From Petrachloros mirabilis ULC683 (GTDB lineage Bacteria > Cyanobacteriota > Cyanobacteriia > Thermosynechococcales > Thermosynechococcaceae): a DNA stretch of 64,000 bases. This document shows positions 4,376 through 35,163 of this stretch, piece after piece. The stretch is taken from the NCBI RefSeq assembly GCF_009939295.1, contig NZ_WVIC01000004.1, positions 62,001 to 126,000 on the forward strand. The letters run 5' to 3'. The translations under genes and the position numbers were made by a program. The stretch's first letter is position 1, and every line of letters begins with the position of its first letter. Under the pieces are notes generated by a model that was not told the DNA's origin, did no database searches, and saw only the letters and a list, made by a program, of their open reading frames with translations.

Positions 4376-5349
4376 GGTTTGTAAGTAGACGCAGATTTTT
4401 TCGGCCAAAGAACCCCCCAGAGCGGTTGCAGCACGCGCTCGTGAAGCCGATCAACCCAGTGTAGGACTTCAAAAATAGGCTTGCTCAGAGATGGATGCCG
4501 ATAGGGCCACAGGGAGGTATTGACCGTCCGCCATAGCTCAGGATCGTTGATGTTTTGGCGGTCTAGGTAGGTGGCCAGCCAGGTCAAAAATGCTTTTCGA
4601 GCCGGACTGGGCTTAAAGGGGTGATACCGTCCGGCTCGAAGCTCTTGGGCACAACTGGACTGAGAATGTTGTCGATAGCGATCCCTGTAGTTGACATCGA
4701 CAAATACGGGGACATGCAAGTAAACCTTACTAAAAAAGACTTGATCTTCAAACATGCCTCGAAAATCCTCGACAAAACCCCCCACTTGATCAATGACTTC
4801 ATGACGGATTAGCACACTGCAAGTGGCTGGAGCCTGAGCCTGCTGCTTCAGAAGCCGCTTTAGCAGTAGGGGCGGTTGGTAGAGTTGTGGGGCATCCCAG
4901 GTTAAGATGCGCAGTGTGTCTTGGGGGTAATTCTCAGGATGTGCCATCCAGCTATACCAGTATTGAGTGGGGCCGCAAATGACTCCAGCAGCAGGATGTT
5001 GCTGGGCTAGGGCAAGCTGCTGATCTAGCTTGGGCGACAGCCAAACATCATCCGCATCTAGAAAAGAAACCCACTCCCCTCGAGCGTGGGCTAGACCTAG
5101 GTTGCGCGCCGCGCTCATGCCCCGATTTTGATGATGCTCATGGTCGAGATAACGCATTTTTTCAGGATATTGGCGAACGTAGTCCTGTGCGATCGCACTA
5201 CTCCTATCAGTGGAGCCATCATCCACGAACAACAGCTCCCAATGGGGATAGGTTTGAGCCAGCACGCTCTCAACAGCCTCTTTCATAAAGGCTTCCCCAT
5301 TGAAGAAAATCATAATCACAGAAACCAACGGAGCTGGTGATTGGGTCAT
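4372..5349 (-). CDS. Family 2 glycosyltransferase (GT-A fold)
   Basis: 325 residues. The start 'PLVSVIMIFFNGEAFMKEA' and the motifs 'LLFVDDGSTDRSSAIA' (nucleotide-sugar binding) and 'VSFLDADDVWLSPKL' (DXD metal site) identify a GT2 inverting glycosyltransferase. Such enzymes transfer a sugar from a nucleotide donor to a polysaccharide or lipid carrier at the inner membrane. The C-terminal half has the usual variable acceptor domain. It is the first gene of a two-gene operon with the sugar epimerase downstream (4-bp overlap), which suggests the epimerase supplies or modifies its donor. Confidence 0.88.
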   Translation of the reverse strand: MTQSPAPLVSVIMIFFNGEAFMKEAVESVLAQTYPHWELLFVDDGSTDRSSAIAQDYVRQYPEKMRYLDHEHHQNRGMSAARNLGLAHARGEWVSFLDADDVWLSPKLDQQLALAQQHPAAGVICGPTQYWYSWMAHPENYPQDTLRILTWDAPQLYQPPLLLKRLLKQQAQAPATCSVLIRHEVIDQVGGFVEDFRGMFEDQVFFSKVYLHVPVFVDVNYRDRYRQHSQSSCAQELRAGRYHPFKPSPARKAFLTWLATYLDRQNINDPELWRTVNTSLWPYRHPSLSKPIFEVLHWVDRLHERVLQPLWGVLWPKKSASTYKP

Positions 5350-22350: not shown

Positions 22351-23085
22351 GGCTCTTTCGGCTTAAATATGGGCAAAGGGCTAGTGGGTGGGGGAAATGG
22401 AGAGAGTCATAAACGCCAGAGAGGCGTGAAGTGTTTGCTATACAAGGGATTGGCTAGAATTAAAGGGAGAGAGAAAGTCGGGATAATGGGTGAGCGCTAT
22501 GATCACGGAATCTCAAGCGAAGCAATTGACAGAGCTACTGGGTCTTCCTGAGACAAAAGTAGAGGATATGACAACAATAGATGGGGCAGGGCTATTTTTT
22601 GTAATCAGCCCAACCCGGTGAGATGCAGAGTGTCCCCGGTGTGGGAAACGAAGTCGTCATTTGCATGAGAATCATCGCTATAACATTGAAGATTTGCCAT
22701 GGAACAAACAGCCGGTGGTATTGCGAGTCAATCGCCGCCAGTTTTGGTGTCAGGGTTGTGGGCAAGTGTTTAGTGAGGAACTGGCCTTTGTCAAGAAAAG
22801 GCGGTTGTATACCCAGCGGCTAGCGAAGCAGATTGTCAGCGAAGTGTTAGGGAGTAACATTCAAAGTGTAGCGAACCAGACAGGGCTGAGTGACGAGCAG
22901 ATTGAGACAATGATGAAGGATGCTGGGGATGCCTATTTACCCAAAGCTCCAGAACCGTTTAGATATCTGGGGATAGACGAGATAGCGGTTGTCAAAGGTC
23001 AGGGTAAGTATTATGGGGTGAGCGGTGAACCTAGAGACGCACGAGCCGATTACGCTGTTACCCTCAAGGACGCAAGAGGTCAGGA
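22351..23085 (+). mobile_element. ISL3-family insertion sequence, left part
   Basis: The left end GGCTCTTTCGGCTTAAATAT at 22351-22370 is a typical ISL3 inverted repeat. The body encodes a broken ISL3 transposase. The right end is missing: around 23085 the sequence changes to a nuclease gene fragment. It is an old, deleted copy that inserted next to the SDR remnant. Confidence 0.8.
22499..23085 (+). pseudogene. ISL3-family transposase, broken
   Basis: Starts at ATG 22499. A zinc-ribbon 'CPRCGKRSRHLHENH' followed by 'RRQFWCQGCGQVFSEELA', and the catalytic-region 'YLGIDEIAVVKGQGKYYGV', identify the ISL3 family. There are two lesions: TGA at 22619-22621 inside 'SPTR-DAECPRC', and one extra G near 23020, after which the family sequence continues in the +1 frame ('NLETHEPITLLPSRTQEV'). 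It then joins foreign DNA at about 23085. No functional transposase can be made. Confidence 0.82.
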
Positions 23086-23404
23086 TGGAAGCTGGCGGAT
23101 TGCCCGAACGATTCGAGGGAAATCGGGTTCAGCTTGGGATGAGGCAGAACGGCGTGTGCTGGTCGAACTTGCCAAGTGGGATCTTCAGGACGTGTTTCGC
23201 CGCGTCAATGGACATGAAATCGTGGATTTTAGTTGGTTTCTTAACCGGAAAGGCGATGTGATTGGACGTCGGTTCGATCATATCTATGCCTCCACCCAGC
23301 TTTGGCCAGGATCATGCGAGTACATCCATGCTCTACGTACCCAAGGACTGAGTGATCACTCTCCCATCATGGCGAATTTCGCACCGAAGGAAAACGTCAC
23401 TTAA
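23085..23404 (+). pseudogene. Endonuclease/exonuclease/phosphatase (EEP) family fragment, C-terminus
   Basis: About 105 residues to TAA 23402-23404. Motifs 'KWDLQDVFRRVNGHEI', 'GRRFDHIYASTQLWP' and the catalytic 'GLSDHSPI' are those of the exonuclease III/DNase I-like superfamily. The N-terminal half with the metal-binding Asn/Glu residues is absent, replaced by ISL3 DNA. By chance the frame is continuous with the shifted transposase frame from ATG 22661, giving a 247-codon chimeric ORF. I treat it as a remnant of an exonuclease gene. Confidence 0.78.
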
Positions 23405-25037: not shown

Positions 25038-26343
25038 CTTAGTGGTGCAGAAAACTCAAAGGAGCTGAAAGTCTTAGAAGGCAGTCACCTTGGCAAACTC
25101 AATGCGAGAGTTCATAGCATCTCGCTTCTTGAGAGAGGCATCTCTCAGGTGGTGGATTACAGCGTGGCAAATGCCTAAACGGTGGCAGCGGTAATCTTTG
25201 ATAGCAAAGCTGATTAATGCGTCGCAACCCTATTTGCAAAAAGCTTAACCCCCTGTGGGCATGCCAATCAATGGAATTGAGCGCACCTTGAGTAATTGCC
25301 TCAATCGCAACGGAAATGGCAATAATGGTCGCAGCCGCCAGTAACATCAGGAGTCGGCTTAAAGCATCTGCATCTCTGATTCGAGAGCGAGGCAGCTTAA
25401 AGGCCGCAGACTTATAATCCTTGAAATGGGGTTCAATCCCCCCAAAGCGTTGACCATAGAGGGCAAAGGTTTGCACAGAAGGCGTTGTATCTGTAATCAC
25501 AGCCCAAGCCTCCTGAGCTATGGATAAACGAGCAGTCGCCAAATGGCATTGGATATCTCCAAGAATAGTGACATCAGTAAACAGAAAAGCTTGTTCAGGC
25601 TCTGGCAACAGGTCAGCAACTGACTCAGGTTGAGTATTGGACAACGTAATTCTCAAATCCGATTTAGCTCGAATCGCCCAAAACCATTGATGGGATCGTA
25701 GCCAGCGAATCAATTCACCATGCTCAAACCCACGGTCAGCCAATAGAGTGATTTGACAATTCGGGGGCAAAACCGCCTCAGCCGCATCCAACACTGAACA
25801 ATAGTCCGCAAAGGCAACGGTTGCACTGCCATGTTTCATCACCTTTTGAGCGATGGGAAAAGAGCGTCCTCCCCAAGCTAGACAGACCTCTATGAGACAA
25901 TATTCGTCCCACAGCATGCTCGTATCCAGGGTTAGTATCATTGCCATGCCCGCCCACGCTTGAAGGAATTGCACCAGTAAGGGAATGTAGAACGTTTCTG
26001 AGGTGATCTTGGGATTATGAACAAAGTAGCTCAGCCGCTCAAAGTGGCTACGCCCATGACATGAACGATGACTCAAATAAGTCAGCCAATGGCTTAAGCA
26101 ACCACTTTGAGATTGAAGGATGGCTGCGATGTTTTCAGCAAAAACAGTCAGGTGAAGTTTATCTTTGGGTGTGATCCATTGACTCAATTGAGTTTGCAGT
26201 TGACGATAGAGTTGAGGGGTTGACATGAGTTTGCTTTGAGTTGGAGAACTTAAGCATCACATTAAAAGCCCCTCTCTGTCACCATTGACGAATTTCAATA
26301 CTCCCTGCTGGTATGCCTTCTACGACTTTTCTGCACCACTAAG
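25038..26343 (-). mobile_element. IS4-family insertion sequence, complete
   Basis: 1,306 bp with perfect 17-bp ends: CTTAGTGGTGCAGAAAA at 25038-25054 and its reverse complement at 26327-26343. It encodes one DDE transposase. Flanks differ (intron maturase on the left, isochorismatase on the right) and no target duplication is seen, so the present junctions come from a deletion or recombination between two copies rather than a simple insertion. Confidence 0.88.
25099..26226 (-). CDS. IS4-family DDE transposase
   Basis: 375 residues, full length for the element. DDE signature: 'MILTLDTSMLWDEY' (first Asp), 'ITLLADRGFEHGELIRWL' (second Asp) and 'FGGIEPHFKDYKSAAFKLP' (Glu, with the following Y-x-K part of the IS4 YREK-like box). 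The C-terminal tail is Pro/Cys-rich. The frame has no visible lesion and both IS ends are intact, so the element may still be active. Start ATG 26224-26226 lies 100 bases inside the right end. Confidence 0.85.
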   Translation of the reverse strand: MSTPQLYRQLQTQLSQWITPKDKLHLTVFAENIAAILQSQSGCLSHWLTYLSHRSCHGRSHFERLSYFVHNPKITSETFYIPLLVQFLQAWAGMAMILTLDTSMLWDEYCLIEVCLAWGGRSFPIAQKVMKHGSATVAFADYCSVLDAAEAVLPPNCQITLLADRGFEHGELIRWLRSHQWFWAIRAKSDLRITLSNTQPESVADLLPEPEQAFLFTDVTILGDIQCHLATARLSIAQEAWAVITDTTPSVQTFALYGQRFGGIEPHFKDYKSAAFKLPRSRIRDADALSRLLMLLAAATIIAISVAIEAITQGALNSIDWHAHRGLSFLQIGLRRINQLCYQRLPLPPFRHLPRCNPPPERCLSQEARCYELSH

Positions 26344-27194: not shown

Positions 27195-28407
27195 CAGGGT
27201 TATTTCATTCTAGACAGGTAGGCTAAGATTCTTGTATAGTAGGGCATTCGCCGAAAGGAAACCCTCCCGCCAAGGACATCTCCCGCCATGAGTACCCTCG
27301 CCATTGTCGAAGCATTTCGAGACTTACCCGACACCCGCCGCGAAGCCGGACGTCGCCATGAATTAGCCTTGTGTTTAGCACTGTTCACCTTGGCGGTTAG
27401 TGCCGGATGCCGTGGCTTTTTGGCAATGGGGGACTGGTTAAACAGTTATCGAGACGAGTTGGTCGAGTGGTTTGCGCCGCCCAAAAACCGATTACCGTCG
27501 TATAGTACGATTCGGCGGGCGCTCTTGAAGTTAGACTACGCCGCCTATAGTCATTGTCTGGCAAACTTTTTTGAAATTGAGCCGTTGGCCGGGAAGACCA
27601 TCGCCCTTGACGGCAAGACCTTACGGGGGTCATATAACGCCGAGACACCCGCGAGCAAGGCCGACCCCCATCAGGCGATCCAATTGGTGAGCGTGTATGT
27701 GGTGGAACGGGGGTTGATTTTACCGGTTCAACCCGTTGATAAGAAGAGTAATGAAATCACCGCATTGCCCCCTGTACTCAAGGAACTGGCCCATCGAGGC
27801 GTGGTCTTTGCCTTTGATGCCCTCAATACCCAAAAAAAACTTGTGTACAGATAATCGCTTCCGGGAATCATTACTTGGGTGTCCTCAAAGGGAATCATGG
27901 CAACTTTCTCAAGGCCATTAAGGGGCAATTTCAGGCTCAAGAGTCAGTTCACACCGTCGAACAGGGGCATGGACGGGTGGAGCGTCGCAGTGTCAGCGTG
28001 TTTCGTGAGGTTGACTTACTTCCCGGTGCCCAGGAATGGGCTGCTCTGAAAACAGTGATTCGGGTGAAGCGCTATCGTCATATCCTCAAAGGTGGCTATA
28101 TCTTGATTAAAAAGCCGACAACCCACTATTACATTAGCTCGTTAGATGAGAGTGCCCAAGACTTTGGCCAACGGATACGAGAATATTGGCAGGTAGAGAA
28201 TAAGGTGCATTATGTACGCGATGTCACCCAAGGAGAAGATGCATCGAGAATACGGGTTGAGCCACTACCGAATATATTGGCTATAGCTCGAAATCTAGCC
28301 CTAAATTTGTATCGAGACCATGGCTGTACCAATATGGCGCAAGCCCAACCCAAGGCAGGGAAAGGTCTCAACTTCCTTAAATCTCTTTTTGGAATGAAAT
28401 AGCCCTG
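27195..28407 (+). mobile_element. ISAs1-family insertion sequence
   Basis: 1,213 bp with 16-bp ends differing at one base: CAGGGTTATTTCATTC at the left and the complement of CAGGGCTATTTCATTC at the right. It carries one transposase gene split by a frameshift. No target duplication is seen, and higA does not continue to the right, so the far flank was altered later. Confidence 0.85.
27288..28402 (+). pseudogene. ISAs1-family transposase split by a -1 frameshift at an A8 run
   Basis: Two frames together make a complete ~370-residue DDE transposase. The first (27288-27854) contains 'GKTIALDGKTLRGSYN' and 'VVFAFDALNTQKK'; the second (to TAG 28400-28402) continues 'NHYLGVLKGNHGNFLKAI' and 'YWQVENKVHYVRDVTQGED'. 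The break is exactly at eight adenines (27832-27839), read in the zero frame as AAA AAA followed by C, a classic slippery site. It may be a polymerase slip that killed the gene or a site allowing -1 ribosomal frameshifting. This IS family is normally encoded in one frame, which favours mutation. Confidence 0.8.
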
Positions 28408-28488: not shown

Positions 28489-30885
28489 TTAAAAATCGAC
28501 AGATTCTTCTTGACTGGGGTCAGACTCTTCTAACTGCTCCAGCATATCCTGATGCTGTCGTGGAATAGCCTGGTGGCCAGCCTGGAAGGGGTTTGCCGGT
28601 GCTCCAAATCGAACCACAACAGAAAACGTATGATCCTGAGTCGTTAGTGAATTCCCCCCCGAATCAAGACCAATATCATAGCGGTTATTAGACCAGAGAA
28701 AATTCAGCGACGGATGGTTGGGTTGCCGTCCCAGCCGTAGATTTACGCCTGCCCCCACCCTGGAAAAACTTAGGTTTTTATTGAGCGGACTGTAGTAGGC
28801 AAACAATCGCGCATAGGGATGCATTTGCCAGCGGGTCGTGAGCGTAACGCTAGATTCCCGGGAGTTGGGCAGCACATCCCCGACTACCCCAACGACCCCA
28901 AAATCAAAATCACGAAAATTGGCCTGGGCATTGAGGCTAACCGCGCTGGCGTCATTATTAATCACAAACTGATCGATATTGGTATCGCGGTCAATGGCGT
29001 AGTTGAGTCCAGCCCCAAAAGTTAACGTAAAGTCACGGGATAGCTGCGTGCGCTTACGAACATTAGCCTCAATCGAACTGAAGTAGTCAGGATCAGGATT
29101 GGTATAGCCAATCCCAGCGAACTGAAACCGCCAACCACTTGGGGTCTCACGGGTATAGTCTGCCCCCACGTAGGCTTTGAGATCAGAACTGGTAATCAGC
29201 CCCGTGTAATAGCGAAACACATCTTCAGCCCCAGTGAAGTTGCCACTGAAGCTAATGTGAGGAACATAATTGGTCAGCTCCGTAAAGCGCCTCACCTGCG
29301 TTTGCTCGCCATCTTGCTCAAACGCAGTCACGTAGACCTGCGTATAGAAATTGAGTATATCGGTGGGATCAACCTGAAAGATTTCATCCGGTGAGGCAAT
29401 TACAACTGGAAGGTTAATATCGACATCTTCTAAGGCATCTAACCCCCCACCTTCAGCACCAATCGGGCCAACTTGACTGGTGGGGTCGTCGCCCGTAAGC
29501 CGGAGTGCTGATGACTCGGTAATGGAGCGGCGAACCACCGGAGACAGCCCCACCCACACACTATTAAAGTGCCCCCAGGGAACGTCCCGTTGGGTGCGAA
29601 TTTCGTCTAGCTCAAGGCTTCTGGCTCGCCCTAAGCCTCCTTGGTAAACCGTGTAGCTATTGGTCGGCAGACGAGTGTTGTTAGCTGCCGTAAACAAGTT
29701 GCGATTAATATTGCGGTTGGGCGGATTTTCTCCCCCTTCCAGGCGAGGGACAGCATCTGGCAATAACCAGGCCGCTGGATGCCACAGGGTCGATGACAAA
29801 AAATTGTCATTCGGTGCCACAATGGCTAATCCACGAATCGTGCGACCCAGAACAGCTTCTCGATCATTGGCTTTGACCACCTGCCGTACCTGGGAAAAAA
29901 TGCCGACCGGATATTCCCGAAAATCTTCCTGTCGTCTGATTTCAGTGGTTTCTGATTGACTGCTGCCAAAGGTGGTGCCCGTATTGGGAAAGGTGAGATC
30001 AAGGCCAATCGGTGGCTCAAGCCCCCCCTGAAACCCTGGCTGACGGGTCAACTCAATATCTTCGGGTGAGACCACATCCCCGATGCTAGAGGTGACAAAA
30101 AAGCGCGTGGGAAACAAGGTTGCAGGCTCCAGGCTATCGAGATCGGTCACCAGTCCTGGGGTAAAGGTGCAAAATTGATCCGAGCTTAGCCCAGGAAACA
30201 CGCAGGCTCCGGTCAGGGACAGTTGCAGCTGGATGCCGAGTGCCGTCACCGGCTCAATAGTGGTGGTGGTTACTTCCCGCTCTCGGCGAAAGGTGCGCAG
30301 TTGCAAGTAGGAAGCACGCTGATCTTGAATCAGCACGTTGTCTTGAATGCCCTCTCGCACTTGCCCGTGGAGGCGCACCAGGGCATTGATATTGGGGTTA
30401 GTGGAGCGATCGGTGCCAAAGTTAACCCCTGGCTCTAGCTCCCATTGGGTGCGGTGGGTAATTGTGGCACCATTCAACGGCAGGGTCGTAGAGATCGGGC
30501 TGACACTATCTGGGTCAGAGGGTTGTAATTCAGTGGAAATAGGCTTGGGGTCTTCTGGATCTGGCTGTGGCTGCTCAGGAGCTTCAGGGGCAACTTCAAA
30601 CTCATCCGGCGGCGAGATTTGAGGCGACCCAAACGGCTCGAAGGGCGGCACAAGTTCTTCTGGAAATCGTAAGTCGTTAGCGCTAGGTGGACGGGGGGTG
30701 CGCGCCACTGGAGGCTCTAAAACCAGGTCTTCAGCAGATTGAGAAATGATTGTTTTTTTGCCATTTAAGCTCTCGGTTGGAGCTGTAATTTTCTCAATTG
30801 CAGTAGCAGAACTGGCTCCGCACAAAGCCAACAGGGTGATAAATTTGACACAGAGTAAATGAAGTAGAAAGACGTAAACTTTCAC
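28489..30885 (-). CDS. Large exported protein with probable C-terminal outer-membrane beta-barrel
   Basis: 798 residues; start GTG 30883-30885 with AGGAG nine bases upstream. An N-terminal signal sequence ('LLHLLCVKFITLLALCGASS') leads into a Pro/Glu-rich linker (~60-130), a ~470-residue middle region without recognisable motifs, and a final ~250 residues of alternating hydrophobic strands ending in short acidic residues ('FTLTFGAGLNYAIDRDT', 'SSVTLTTRWQMHPYARLFAY', 'HTFSVVVRFGAP'). This looks like an outer-membrane barrel. It is last in a same-strand series with three other exported-protein genes. I do not recognise a named family; transport of, or anchoring for, those neighbours is only an inference. 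Confidence 0.65.
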   Translation of the reverse strand: MKVYVFLLHLLCVKFITLLALCGASSATAIEKITAPTESLNGKKTIISQSAEDLVLEPPVARTPRPPSANDLRFPEELVPPFEPFGSPQISPPDEFEVAPEAPEQPQPDPEDPKPISTELQPSDPDSVSPISTTLPLNGATITHRTQWELEPGVNFGTDRSTNPNINALVRLHGQVREGIQDNVLIQDQRASYLQLRTFRREREVTTTTIEPVTALGIQLQLSLTGACVFPGLSSDQFCTFTPGLVTDLDSLEPATLFPTRFFVTSSIGDVVSPEDIELTRQPGFQGGLEPPIGLDLTFPNTGTTFGSSQSETTEIRRQEDFREYPVGIFSQVRQVVKANDREAVLGRTIRGLAIVAPNDNFLSSTLWHPAAWLLPDAVPRLEGGENPPNRNINRNLFTAANNTRLPTNSYTVYQGGLGRARSLELDEIRTQRDVPWGHFNSVWVGLSPVVRRSITESSALRLTGDDPTSQVGPIGAEGGGLDALEDVDINLPVVIASPDEIFQVDPTDILNFYTQVYVTAFEQDGEQTQVRRFTELTNYVPHISFSGNFTGAEDVFRYYTGLITSSDLKAYVGADYTRETPSGWRFQFAGIGYTNPDPDYFSSIEANVRKRTQLSRDFTLTFGAGLNYAIDRDTNIDQFVINNDASAVSLNAQANFRDFDFGVVGVVGDVLPNSRESSVTLTTRWQMHPYARLFAYYSPLNKNLSFSRVGAGVNLRLGRQPNHPSLNFLWSNNRYDIGLDSGGNSLTTQDHTFSVVVRFGAPANPFQAGHQAIPRQHQDMLEQLEESDPSQEESVDF

Positions 30886-31552
30886 TCGTCATCTCCTACC
30901 ATATTTTTTATTCTTATTAAGCCAAGTTCGACATCTTCTATGATTCAACTTGTGTACACACCGTGGCTGAGAGAAGGGATCCGATCATCTTTCCGATTCC
31001 CTCTCCCCTTGGGCTACTCAGTACACACAAGTCTTCGGTTGTATTATCCAACACGCCTCGCCCCCTAAATCCCCCATTACGGGGGACTTTGAGGAGCTGA
31101 TTCCCCCCAGAGGTAGGGGGCAATGCAGCATTTTGGGTTCGACTTTGAGAGGTGTGTACTGAGTTACCCTTTGGGAGAGGGGAGTTGATTCACCCCCCTG
31201 TTTCCCCTAGTCCTCTCCCAGAGGGCTAGGATGTACACACAAATCTTAAAAGGATGATTACAAGCCTCTAACATCCTTACACTCGCCCCCCTGCCCCCCA
31301 ATTTGGGGGGTTCTGAATATCTCACAGTCCCCCAGAATGGGGGATGTAGGGGGCGAATGCAGGGTGGAATGGTTTTCCCAGGCTTCTGTGTACACCCTAG
31401 CCCTCTCCCAGTGGACTAGGGTGTAGATGCTTAGTGGCTTCTCTTTGAGTGGGCTTTTGACTGAGAAGTGTTATCAGTCAAACAGTCTCATATTGAAGCG
31501 CAGCTTGGCTTTCTTTAACAGTTGTGAAAACCTTCAGTCTTCACTGTCATCA
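30886..31552. other. Spacer with C/G-rich repeats
   Basis: No gene. It holds 'GTACACAC'-bounded segments with CCCCCTAAATCCCCC-type hairpins (about 31055-31125 and 31262-31388) and corresponds, base for base in long stretches, to the spacer at 32840-33480. It separates the barrel gene from the first exported paralogue, so these may not form one transcript. Confidence 0.6.
31262..31388. repeat. C/G-rich dispersed repeat
   Basis: Contains TCGCCCCCCTGCCCCCCAAT and GGGGGATGTAGGGGGCGAAT as facing halves, with weak AAGCCT/AGGCTT ends. Same family as the copies at 11141, 33286 and 45147. Confidence 0.65.
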
Positions 31553-32485
31553 CTAGTCGTAGTCAACACGAACGTCAGCATCATTGGTACCATCAACACC
31601 AGCATCCGACTGACCCTGATCGCCGAGGATACCCCCTTCTCCAAAAGTACCGATAGATACGAAGAAGGAGCCAATTCCTCTAGGATTGGCCGCAGCCGTA
31701 GAAGAGGCAATATCAGAATCATAGCTAGAGTTGTTTATGGCAGTTTCATCCCCTTGTGTCAAAAAATGAGCCGTGGTTGCAGAGCTAATGGTGGAGTTGG
31801 AAAAGGCACTCCCAGTTCCGTCGGCATTGATAGCCGCACCCACGGTAATGTTGTCATAGAAGAAGGCTTGTATCTGACCCGATTGTTCTGGAAGATCGAT
31901 ATCGCCGGACGAGGTATCTCCCCTACCACCTGTGGCAGCGACAGTGGCAGCAATATTTGCACCGGGCTCAGGTGTAATCGACGAGTAGGAGGCATTAATC
32001 TCGATGTCGTCTTCTCCCAAGACACCCACATCTAACAATTCAAAGGGGACATCCTCACCGACGGTTCCCTCAAACTTTGCCTCTCCGGTCAAGCCAATGG
32101 CCACGGCGAAGCCTGACAGTGGCAAGGAGTTGGCTACAGCGGTGGAGGAGGCAATATCAGAGCGGTGGAAAGATCTGCTTTCTCCATCGATAACCAGTCC
32201 TGTGTTGTCGATGAAAGTATTTCGAAGAGATGTGGAGCTAATGGTGGAGTTGGAAAAGGCACTGCCATCCCCAGATAAATTGACAGCAGCACCGACGGTG
32301 ATGTTTTCAAAGGTTGTGCTGAGATTGGCACTCTGGGAACCCAGATTAAAGTTACCCTCTAAAGTACTTTCGTTACCCGTTGCAGTGACCGTGGCAGCAA
32401 TGTTTTGAGCATTTGTAGGGTTGACTGTCAAGAGACAAGCTGAGGTGCTGGCTAAGACAGCACTGGCAATGAAGAGTTTATTCAT
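31553..32485 (-). CDS. Exported two-repeat protein, paralogue 1
   Basis: 310 residues. A signal peptide ('LFIASAVLASTSACLL', cleavage near 'TNAQ') is followed by two related ~140-residue units. Each has the order 'NIAATV-ATG', a spacer, 'ENITVGAA-N', 'SAFSNSTISS', 'SDIASSTA-AN' and a Gly-rich 'IG-GE' turn. The composition is rich in Ser, Thr, Asn, Ala, Gly and Asp, with almost no Cys, Trp or Lys in the mature part. That suggests a beta-rich extracellular or fibre-forming protein. A 298-residue paralogue is encoded just upstream; both have AAGGA ribosome sites. I recognise no family name. Confidence 0.7.
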   Translation of the reverse strand: MNKLFIASAVLASTSACLLTVNPTNAQNIAATVTATGNESTLEGNFNLGSQSANLSTTFENITVGAAVNLSGDGSAFSNSTISSTSLRNTFIDNTGLVIDGESRSFHRSDIASSTAVANSLPLSGFAVAIGLTGEAKFEGTVGEDVPFELLDVGVLGEDDIEINASYSSITPEPGANIAATVAATGGRGDTSSGDIDLPEQSGQIQAFFYDNITVGAAINADGTGSAFSNSTISSATTAHFLTQGDETAINNSSYDSDIASSTAAANPRGIGSFFVSIGTFGEGGILGDQGQSDAGVDGTNDADVRVDYD

Positions 32486-33483
32486 GATTTCAATCCTTGA
32501 TAGACAATTACTAAGAGTTCTGTCGTCTTTTAGGAGTGAAAAAGATTGAAGGATGTATCTTTAATCTCCTCGTCTAAATACACTCATAACATAAATTACC
32601 AAAAAAGTTAAATCATTAATTATCTTAATGACTAAATTCTAGGACTTTAAAATTTTATATAAATTTAAGATTAAATTTTGAATATAGAAATCATCAGATT
32701 GACTCACAAATTCCGCAGACAAAGTATTCAAAAATCTTCAAATGAGAACTTTTGAATATAAAGAGCTGTAGATGGACAGTGATTTGTCTACTGGGTGAGT
32801 TGAGGCACCCTTCGTGAATTAACTCGATAAGACACCGATTGTATGCACACCGTAGCTGAGAGAGGGGAGCCAATCCACCTTTCCGGTTTTCTCTTTCCTT
32901 GGGCTACTCAGTACACACAAGTTTTCGGTTGTATTATTCACCCTGTCTCGCCCCCTAAATCCCCCATTCTGGGGGACTTTGAGCATCAAGACTTAGGACT
33001 CGATCGCCCCAGCAATCTGCTGGAGAATTTGGCCTCCGTTTGAGATGACTTCTCTGTTGCGAAACCGCATCACTTGATGACCCAGGTGATTCAGGCTCTA
33101 CCTTCGGGCAGTATCATACTCGACTGGCGATCATGAACCTCGCCATCGACTTCAATAATCAGTTGGTGCTGAGGACAATAAAAATCGACAATGAAGGACT
33201 CAACTGGATGCTGACGGCGAAACTTTACCATGCTTTACATTTACTCCCCAACTCGAATTCTGGAGGACTTCAGGGTAATCAAAGTCCCCCAGAATGGGGG
33301 ATTTAGGGGGCGAATGCAGCATTTTGGGTTCGACTCAGAGATGTGTGTACTTAGTAGCCCTTTAGGGGAGGGCTAGGGTAAGAGTTTTTGGTTAAGAAGG
33401 TTTGGTAGTCAAGCAGTCTTATATTAAAGCGAAGCTTGGCTTTCTTTAACTGTTGTGAAAACCTTCAGTCTTCACTGTCATCA
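32486..33483. other. Spacer between the duplicated genes
   Basis: About 1 kb: the A/T-rich upstream region of paralogue 1 (32486-32830), a C/G-rich repeat at 32945-32990, the DUF559 remnant, another C/G repeat half at 33280-33320, and sequence matching the 3' flank of paralogue 1. The promoter of paralogue 1 is expected in 32520-32720; no clean -35/-10 pair can be fixed. Confidence 0.5.
32998..33230 (-). pseudogene. DUF559 (very-short-patch-repair-like) nuclease remnant
   Basis: Minus-strand reading gives 'KFRRQHPVESFIVDFYCPQ' and 'HQLIIEVDGEVHDRQ', the core of DUF559 proteins related to Vsr endonucleases. After two frame changes it continues 'LNHLGHQVMRFRNREV' and 'NGGQILQQIAGAIES'. At least two frameshifts and no start remain, so it is a dead copy sitting in the spacer of the second duplication unit only. 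Confidence 0.75.
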
Positions 33484-34380
33484 CTAGTCGTAGACAACCA
33501 CAATGGTAGCGTCGTTGGTGCCTTCAACACCAGCATCCGACTGACTCTGAGCGCCGAAGAAACCCCCTTCTCCAAAAGTACCGATGGCTACAAAGAATTC
33601 GTTAATCCCTCTAGGATTGGCTGCAGCCGTAGAAGAGGCAATATCAGAGTCATAGACAGAGTTATCTGTAATAGCATCATTCGCCGCTGTCGTGAAATGA
33701 GTCGTGGATGCAGAGCTAATGGTGGAGTTGGAGAAGGCACTCCCCGTTCCGTCGGCATTGATGGCCGCACCCACGGTAATGTTGTCATAAAACGCTTGTA
33801 TCTGCCCCGATTGTTCTGGGAGGTCGATCTCTCCAGACGACGTATGTCCCCTACCCCCTGTGGCAGAAACGGTGGCAGCAATATTTGCACCTGCTGGCTC
33901 AGGTACAATTGAAGGCTGGTCGTAGAAAACATTAATATCGATATCCTCTACTCCCAAAACACCCACACTCCTGTACTCTCCGGTCAAGCCAATGGCTACA
34001 GCAAAGCCTGACAGTGGCAAGGAGTTGGCTACAGCGGTGGAGGAGACAATGTTAGAGCGGTGGAAGGATTTAAGACCTCTATTGATAAACCCTCCTACCT
34101 CGTCGATGATACTCTTTTGAAGAGATGTGGAGCTAATGGTGGAGTTGGAAAAGGCACTTCCAGTTCCATCGGCATTGACAGCAGCACCCACGGTAATGTT
34201 ATCAAAGGTTGTACTGAGGTTGGCACTCTGGGAACCCAGATTCAAGCCACCATCTAAAGTCCTTTCGCTACCCGTCGCCGTGACCGTGGCGGCAATGTTT
34301 TGAGCATTTGCAGAATTGACAGCCAAAAGACAAGCTGAGGTGCTGGCTAAAACAGCACTGGCAATGAAGAGTTTATTCAT
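33484..34380 (-). CDS. Exported two-repeat protein, paralogue 2
   Basis: 298 residues with the same signal peptide and the same two-unit architecture as the protein at 31553. The first unit is slightly shorter in its acidic linker, and the second has 'YDQPSIVPEPAGANIAATV' at the junction. 'SAFSNSTISSTSL' and 'SAFSNSTISSAST' appear once per unit. The strongest conservation between paralogues is in the signal peptide, the 'NITVGAA' strands and the C-terminal 'SDAGVEGTNDA' tail. A beta-rich surface or matrix protein is the likeliest reading; function is unknown. Confidence 0.7.
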   Translation of the reverse strand: MNKLFIASAVLASTSACLLAVNSANAQNIAATVTATGSERTLDGGLNLGSQSANLSTTFDNITVGAAVNADGTGSAFSNSTISSTSLQKSIIDEVGGFINRGLKSFHRSNIVSSTAVANSLPLSGFAVAIGLTGEYRSVGVLGVEDIDINVFYDQPSIVPEPAGANIAATVSATGGRGHTSSGEIDLPEQSGQIQAFYDNITVGAAINADGTGSAFSNSTISSASTTHFTTAANDAITDNSVYDSDIASSTAAANPRGINEFFVAIGTFGEGGFFGAQSQSDAGVEGTNDATIVVVYD

Positions 34381-34785
34381 GATTTCAATCCTTGATAGAC
34401 AATTGCCAAGAGTTCTATCGTCTTCTAGGAGTGAAAAAGATTGAAGGATGTATCTTTAATCTCCTCGCCTAGTTACACATAACATAAATTGTCGAAAAAG
34501 CAAAATCGTTAATTATCTTAATGATTAAATTCTAAAATTCTTTGTAAATGTAAGGTTAAATTTTGAATATAGAAGTCATCTGATGGGCTCAAAAATTCCG
34601 TAGGCAAAATCTCCAAAAGTCTTCAAATCAGAACTTTTGAAGGTAGAGAGCTGTAGATGCACGGTGATTTATCTACTGAGTGAGCCACGAAATTTTTCGT
34701 GAACTAACCCGGCAAGTCATTGATTTGTTAAAAGTCAGTAATCCTATATACAAGTCATGAGGGCTTGACAATTGGATTGATAAAA
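34381..34785. other. A/T-rich upstream region of paralogue 2
   Basis: About 400 bases, matching 32486-32830 closely in its first 330 bases. It probably contains the promoter. A/T content is much higher than in flanking genes. No RNA gene is seen. Confidence 0.45.
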
Positions 34786-35163
34786 TTAAGGTTGTTCAGG
34801 TGATTGACTGGATTTAATAATGCCTCGGGTCACATTGCTGCCAAGGGGAACAATAATATTGGCATCATCAATGGGCTGAGAGGAGCTTGCAGCAAAGCTT
34901 CCGAGGAGTTGCCGATGCTCACTGTTTTCTACGAAATATCCAGCGACGGCATCTTGTTGGCCAATGGCGATACCGGTACTAATGCCAAGCAAATTAGCAT
35001 TGGAGTTGACCATGGGATTAGCGTCATACTGAAGCACCACAACCCCAGCAATAGCAGGGCTATTACCTACAGATAACTGATCTGCCAAAGCTAACCCGGG
35101 TTGAAATGTGATACTCCAAGCTGGAATCAAGAAGGCAGCCAGAATAATTTTGGGCAAAGTCAT
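34786..35163 (-). CDS. Small exported protein
   Basis: 125 residues from ATG 35161-35163, preceded by AGGA; the longer frame from 35199 adds 12 hydrophobic residues and is less likely. The signal peptide is 'ILAAFLIPAWSITFQPGLAL', with cleavage after 'LALA'. The mature part is short, uncharged in its centre ('AIAGVVVLQYDANPMV', 'NANLLGISTGIAIGQQ') and ends in a Ser/Gln/Pro-rich tail. No family is recognised. It is the most upstream gene of the exported-protein series and shares their compositional style. Confidence 0.6.
   Translation of the reverse strand: MTLPKIILAAFLIPAWSITFQPGLALADQLSVGNSPAIAGVVVLQYDANPMVNSNANLLGISTGIAIGQQDAVAGYFVENSEHRQLLGSFAASSSQPIDDANIIVPLGSNVTRGIIKSSQSPEQP

Follow-up and report, generated by a model that had tools for sequence, protein, structure and literature searches.

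A predicted outer-membrane barrel and its small exported partner protein at a locus of the cyanobacterium Petrachloros mirabilis

We analysed a stretch of 64,000 nucleotides, called the window here, from Petrachloros mirabilis ULC683 (assembly GCF_009939295.1, contig NZ_WVIC01000004.1, positions 62,001 to 126,000 of the forward strand), whose genome comprises 4.1 Mb in 79 contigs. A first-pass annotation, made from the sequence alone, had placed four minus-strand genes between window positions 28489 and 35163, and all four open reading frames are present. The locus contains the following features, given in window positions:

28489 to 30885, minus strand: predicted outer-membrane barrel protein, 798 residues, GTG start.
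31553 to 32485, minus strand: P1, putative exported two-unit protein, 310 residues, with unit a at 31961 to 32407 and unit b at 31556 to 31960.
33484 to 34380, minus strand: P2, a P1 paralogue and putative exported two-unit protein, 298 residues, with unit a at 33889 to 34302 and unit b at 33487 to 33888.
34786 to 35163, minus strand: small, putatively exported protein, apparently a divergent member of the "GEGG" family, 125 residues from the ATG at 35163.
30950 to 34684, no strand assigned: tandem duplication of a segment of about 1.9 kb, with copies at about 30950 to 32799 and 32839 to 34684, which gave rise to P1, P2 and the flanks of both.

The small protein has an alternative start at TTG 35199, giving 137 residues. 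Signal peptides of the locus proteins were judged by eye, as a hydrophobic run plus A-x-A. No protein of the locus matches Pfam, NCBIfam or PADLOC above the cut-off, and no defence families were found at the locus. Transposase genes at window positions 22661 to 23404, 25099 to 26226 and 27288 to 28402, one of them apparently split by a frame break, border the locus and end about 90 bases from the 3' end of the barrel gene.

P1 and P2 are two paralogues of two units each, as had been described from the sequence, the units being about 134 to 149 residues long where some 140 had been proposed. The two proteins are 78% identical, and at the DNA level the identity is 81% over 1.37 kb, a stretch that takes in both flanks. 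A tandem duplication of the 1.9-kb segment, flanks included, gave rise to them. Repeats in either orientation (TCGCCCCCTAAATCCCCCATTCTGGGGGACTTTGA and related elements) at window positions 31058 to 31092, 31321 to 31356, 32948 to 32982 and 33279 to 33313 occupy intergenic gaps inside the duplicated segment.

A second set of these genes is found on another contig of the same genome (C71). It encodes a barrel of 798 residues that is 68% identical to the window barrel, one single-unit protein of 148 residues and a small protein of 125 residues that is 46% identical to its window counterpart. The order small gene, unit gene, barrel gene and their orientation are alike in both loci, indicating that the set was duplicated or kept whole, and the two barrels are sisters in the barrel tree. 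The stretch ITVGAA-N--G-GSAFS-STI-S is kept in all five units. Relatives of the two-unit proteins are confined to the two loci of this genome, a search of 386 genomes of the phylum and of 58 relatives giving none; P1 matches in two genomes (G340 and G072) are histidinol-phosphate aminotransferase-like proteins and were dismissed as chance. A 55-codon piece of a barrel C-terminus, 65% identical and with a stop, lies on a further contig (C51:32976-33128, about 4977 to 5129 of locus L009) and is the remnant of a decayed third copy. The only CsgG-domain protein of the genome is encoded at C5:92574-93170 (L134), on a different contig from the window locus.

The dN/dS ratio is 0.08 for the barrel against its C71 paralogue and 0.47 for P1 against P2, which indicates constrained coding genes. 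Between the two loci, the ratio is 0.21 for the small protein and 0.30 for the unit protein; the between-locus values are rough, with dS near saturation. The exported partners are under weaker constraint than the barrel (0.21 to 0.47 versus 0.08).

The 798-residue protein consists of an N-terminal hydrophobic segment, a Pro-rich disordered linker at about residues 25 to 125, a barrel at about 131 to 765 and a disordered C-terminal tail at 768 to 798. The Pro-rich linker had been noticed before and is confirmed by a Pro content of 22% in residues 25 to 125. A C-terminal outer-membrane barrel had also been suggested; a barrel is indeed predicted by AlphaFold2, but it extends over about residues 131 to 765 and thus well beyond the C-terminus. 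The model, built with 16 family members as input, shows 22 long strands from about residue 148 to 762, counted manually from the strand list, and is of moderate quality only (mean pLDDT 72, pTM 0.62). The cysteines C228 and C239 are invariant across the aligned cyanobacterial and Cereibacter barrels and probably form a disulphide.

The best structural matches of the barrel are substrate-specific OprD/Occ porins with Z scores of 14 to 15; the VIA-align 2 alignment of residues 134 to 763 to an OprD-type porin gives Z 15.2 and an rmsd of 3.9 over 273 residues with 10% identity. The Foldseek top ranks are TonB receptors, LptD and the usher FimD, with a best E-value of 3e-8 and low TM-scores. The identity to the structural matches is just 6 to 12%. 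Within the limits of the model, these matches point to a large outer-membrane barrel without indicating its function. The first-pass annotation recognised no named family for the barrel, in line with the lack of any Pfam or NCBIfam name. In the 16 barrel members, the Pfam scan yields only a sub-threshold OMP_b-brl match and no CsgG domain, no TonB plug and no porin family domain, and at an E-value of 0.1 there is no match to a POTRA/ShlB or autotransporter barrel. A profile match to a K+/Cl- cotransporter in the PDB was set aside, as it covers the N-terminal Pro-rich part.

Nearly every barrel relative has a small-protein gene as its neighbour, mostly of 124 to 190 residues, which encodes a leader and, after it, a core of the type AGEGG--G-AAFT---G-VTGVAVAAAVGK--AAA-A. 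Most often a barrel has a single small gene, and some other loci have the small gene twice. The window small protein carries the family core V-x-G-x-A-x-A-A-x-G-x-x-x-A-A-x-A in a mature, Cys-free, putatively exported protein adjoining a barrel. Against a GEGG profile with leaders removed and the own genome excluded, it scores 12.0 bits and the small protein of the second locus 19.9 bits, both above all 500 shuffles; with leaders kept, it enters the profile at the second iteration with 2e-6. By these sequence features, we assign the window small protein to the GEGG family as a divergent member. Its structure model is a short strand meander, for which neither Foldseek (E above 1) nor VIA-align finds a match in the PDB.

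The partner proteins contain no Cys (0/49) and about 2% Lys plus Arg, and the residues G, A, S, T and N make up 54 to 60% of the units and the GEGG proteins. The two-unit proteins share the composition of the small family, with no Cys, no Trp, 2% Lys plus Arg and 54% G, A, S, T and N. We considered whether they are divergent copies of the small family and rejected this, their profile scores being no higher than those of shuffles and the hhalign probability under 1%. The simplest reading is that they are an extra lineage-specific exported component.

The full barrel occurs in 14 of 386 cyanobacterial genomes, a fifteenth being a fragment. A small-protein profile built without members from the own genome matches 13 of the 386 genomes, exactly the 13 other barrel genomes (Fisher p about 2.5e-23). 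With the own members included, a broad profile matches 14 of 349 cyanobacterial genomes; these are the 14 full-barrel genomes, and the remaining 335 searched give no match. The expectation that barrel and repeat genes co-occur elsewhere is thus borne out for the small protein, in 14 of 14 full-barrel genomes, but fails for the two-unit proteins, for which relatives were detected in this genome only. The pair of barrel and small protein is found in Trichodesmium, Arthrospira, Calothrix, Nodularia and Picosynechococcus, and phage records contain no barrel. Petrachloros mirabilis is the only genome with a barrel among 29 of its family, and the distribution is patchy; the barrel locus was probably gained by transfer.

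Searching the contigs with an alignment as query gave 44 loci of named organisms, and a single-sequence pattern scan gave none. The small gene lies beside the barrel in 32 of the 44, and in 27 of the 32 with enough flanking sequence. Of the five flank-sufficient loci that lack it, two, namely those of Aphanothece (L081) and of the second Picosynechococcus barrel (L122), show a different small exported protein nearby. This second barrel, in Picosynechococcus PCC 7117, is divergent, and the small exported protein near it (L122:8690-9070) is of another subtype. The small gene can stand upstream or downstream of the barrel and on the same or the opposite strand, and the tree of barrels implies seven or more changes among these four arrangements. 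The adjacency survives rearrangement, which suggests a working link with the barrel rather than an inherited gene order, and we consider a connection of the small protein to the barrel well supported by the genome comparisons.

Barrel relatives are also encoded on plasmids of Cereibacter (Rhodobacter) sphaeroides 2.4.1, of EBL0706 and of C. azotoformans, sharing 30% identity across 626 residues (E 2e-71). In Cereibacter, a gene for a small exported protein rich in Ala, Ser and Thr, with LSSLSVAAGIGASAAATATSTQGATSASAAAT, precedes the barrel gene at a distance of 116 bases; in strain 2.4.1, the accessions are WP_011331344.1 for the small protein and WP_011331345.1 for the barrel. A third small gene follows directly downstream of the barrel. 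This third gene encodes an exported protein of 121 to 123 residues with four Cys and no family match (L131:10935-11306 and L132:10942-11307). In EBL0706 and ORIO, the barrel set adjoins the cellulose synthase genes bcsA and bcsB (bcsB being so named in ORIO). The whole-profile search of the Cereibacter plasmids with small-protein profile A3 gives no match; when the small protein is compared with the cyanobacterial profile, its score is reached by 0 of 500 shuffles for EBL0706 and by 2 of 500 for 2.4.1. The shuffle test and the gene position weakly suggest a relationship to the cyanobacterial family.

DUF4347/RTX or other repeat-rich surface or beta-helix-like proteins are encoded near 17 of 49 barrel loci. 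At L032, L033, L034, L082, L085, L087, L091, L094, L096 and L105, the barrel has a DUF4347-like protein in its vicinity, in many cases encoded between barrel and small gene, and both DUF4347-like proteins scanned (n=2) contain RTX calcium-binding repeats. Loci of Rivularia and Calothrix have a beta-helix-like protein in its place. Such neighbours fit a surface role whether the barrel exports its partners, is a porin with an accessory protein or is a surface anchor.

The initial reading of the locus was that of exported subunits with a dedicated barrel, following the logic of a fibre or matrix system. The exported, duplicated low-complexity subunits, the unnamed barrel and the co-conservation agree with it; the conserved subunit, however, is the small protein and not the repeat proteins. 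We regard a barrel-and-subunit system as the best reading of the locus from the available genomes. The small protein, and here also the two-unit proteins, would leave the cytoplasm via Sec, as their leader sequences suggest, would cross or be displayed at the outer membrane with the aid of the barrel of about 22 strands, and may then form surface or matrix material by assembly outside the cell. That the barrel is a dedicated outer-membrane conduit with cognate secreted substrates of this kind has, in our judgement, a little less than an even chance. In its favour are the gene pair with its tight co-occurrence and kept adjacency, the two copies of the set in this genome, the predicted barrel, and both the composition of the partners and their rapid evolution. 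Against it count the likeness of the predicted barrel to porins and plugged receptors as much as to export channels, the small-protein model without a PDB match, the two-unit proteins being tied to the barrel within this genome only, and the RTX proteins near many loci, which normally exit by type I secretion. In its widest form, the proposal would be an undescribed outer-membrane route in cyanobacteria and some Rhodobacterales, in which a single-chain barrel of about 22 strands exports its own small beta-rich subunits to form an extracellular matrix or fibre, the two-unit proteins being lineage-specific extra substrates; we put this forward tentatively and consider it doubtful as a whole.

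The barrel might instead be a specialised porin or uptake channel that moves a solute, with the small partner as a periplasmic or surface accessory such as a gate, plug or ligand binder. The top structural matches to OprD/Occ porins (Z 14 to 15) and TonB receptors, the single small gene per barrel as the common state and the strongly constrained barrel (dN/dS 0.08) are in keeping with such a channel. We nevertheless consider it unlikely, given that the 16 members have no TonB plug or porin family domain, that the partners resemble secreted polymer or surface proteins (no Cys, poor in Lys and Arg, less constrained) and that they are duplicated in several loci, which would be unneeded for an accessory. 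A surface-display complex, in which the barrel anchors small proteins secreted by other routes, together with large RTX or beta-helix proteins in Oscillatoriales and Rivulariaceae, would account for the repeat-rich surface proteins in 17 of 49 loci and agrees with the type I secretion of RTX proteins described in PMC3034196. Most loci, including both in this genome and those of Cereibacter, have no such large protein, while the small partner is nearly always present, and we find display quite improbable.

Compatible with any of these readings, P1 and P2 could lack a working link to the barrel and be lineage-specific exported proteins that lie in the locus by chance. They have no relative outside the genome and are not detectably similar to the small-protein family, as this would predict; yet in the second locus, on a separate contig, a single-unit relative again stands between small gene and barrel with order and orientation unchanged, which makes a chance placement rather unlikely in our view.

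The building of surface and matrix in cyanobacteria is poorly known, and many outer-membrane proteins are unnamed. The pair of barrel and small protein is missing from Pfam and NCBIfam, yet it recurs in several cyanobacterial genera and on plasmids of the model bacterium C. sphaeroides 2.4.1. We found no description of such a system in the literature covered, which leaves out most subscription journals. The rule that a barrel nearly always comes with a small exported protein provides a clean, testable prediction.

Among known systems, the OprD/Occ porins and TonB-dependent receptors share a large single-chain barrel and give the best structural matches. They differ in their 6 to 12% identity, in the plug domain, which was not found here, and in the nearly constant small exported partner of the present barrel. 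The OprD/Occ porins are 18-stranded and substrate-specific; the present barrel reaches Z 15.2 over 273 residues at 10% identity and has no sequence match to a porin family. Curli (CsgG/CsgA) are alike in the logic of an outer-membrane channel with a secreted beta-rich, polar, low-charge subunit. In contrast to curli, the scanned members have no CsgG domain or curlin repeat, the latter giving no match in P1, P2, the small protein or four GEGG members, so that by the sequence features tested the system is not curli. The Fap system of Pseudomonas (channel FapF, subunits FapC and FapB; PMC5557850) likewise encodes a dedicated outer-membrane barrel with an N-terminal periplasmic extension together with exported low-complexity subunits. 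FapF is a plugged barrel of 12 strands that forms trimers via its N-terminal coiled coil, and the cysteine protease FapD acts together with it (PMC5557850). In place of 12 strands and a coiled coil, AlphaFold2 predicts for the barrel described here about 22 strands and an N-terminus that is disordered and rich in Pro, and neither a FapD protease nor other fap genes were seen among the neighbours examined at the window locus, the second own locus and the annotated Cereibacter loci. The composition of the partners is compatible with a functional amyloid. A curli- or Fap-like working is possible and is our leading reading. The pair is undescribed, being new as a family and known as a kind of arrangement.
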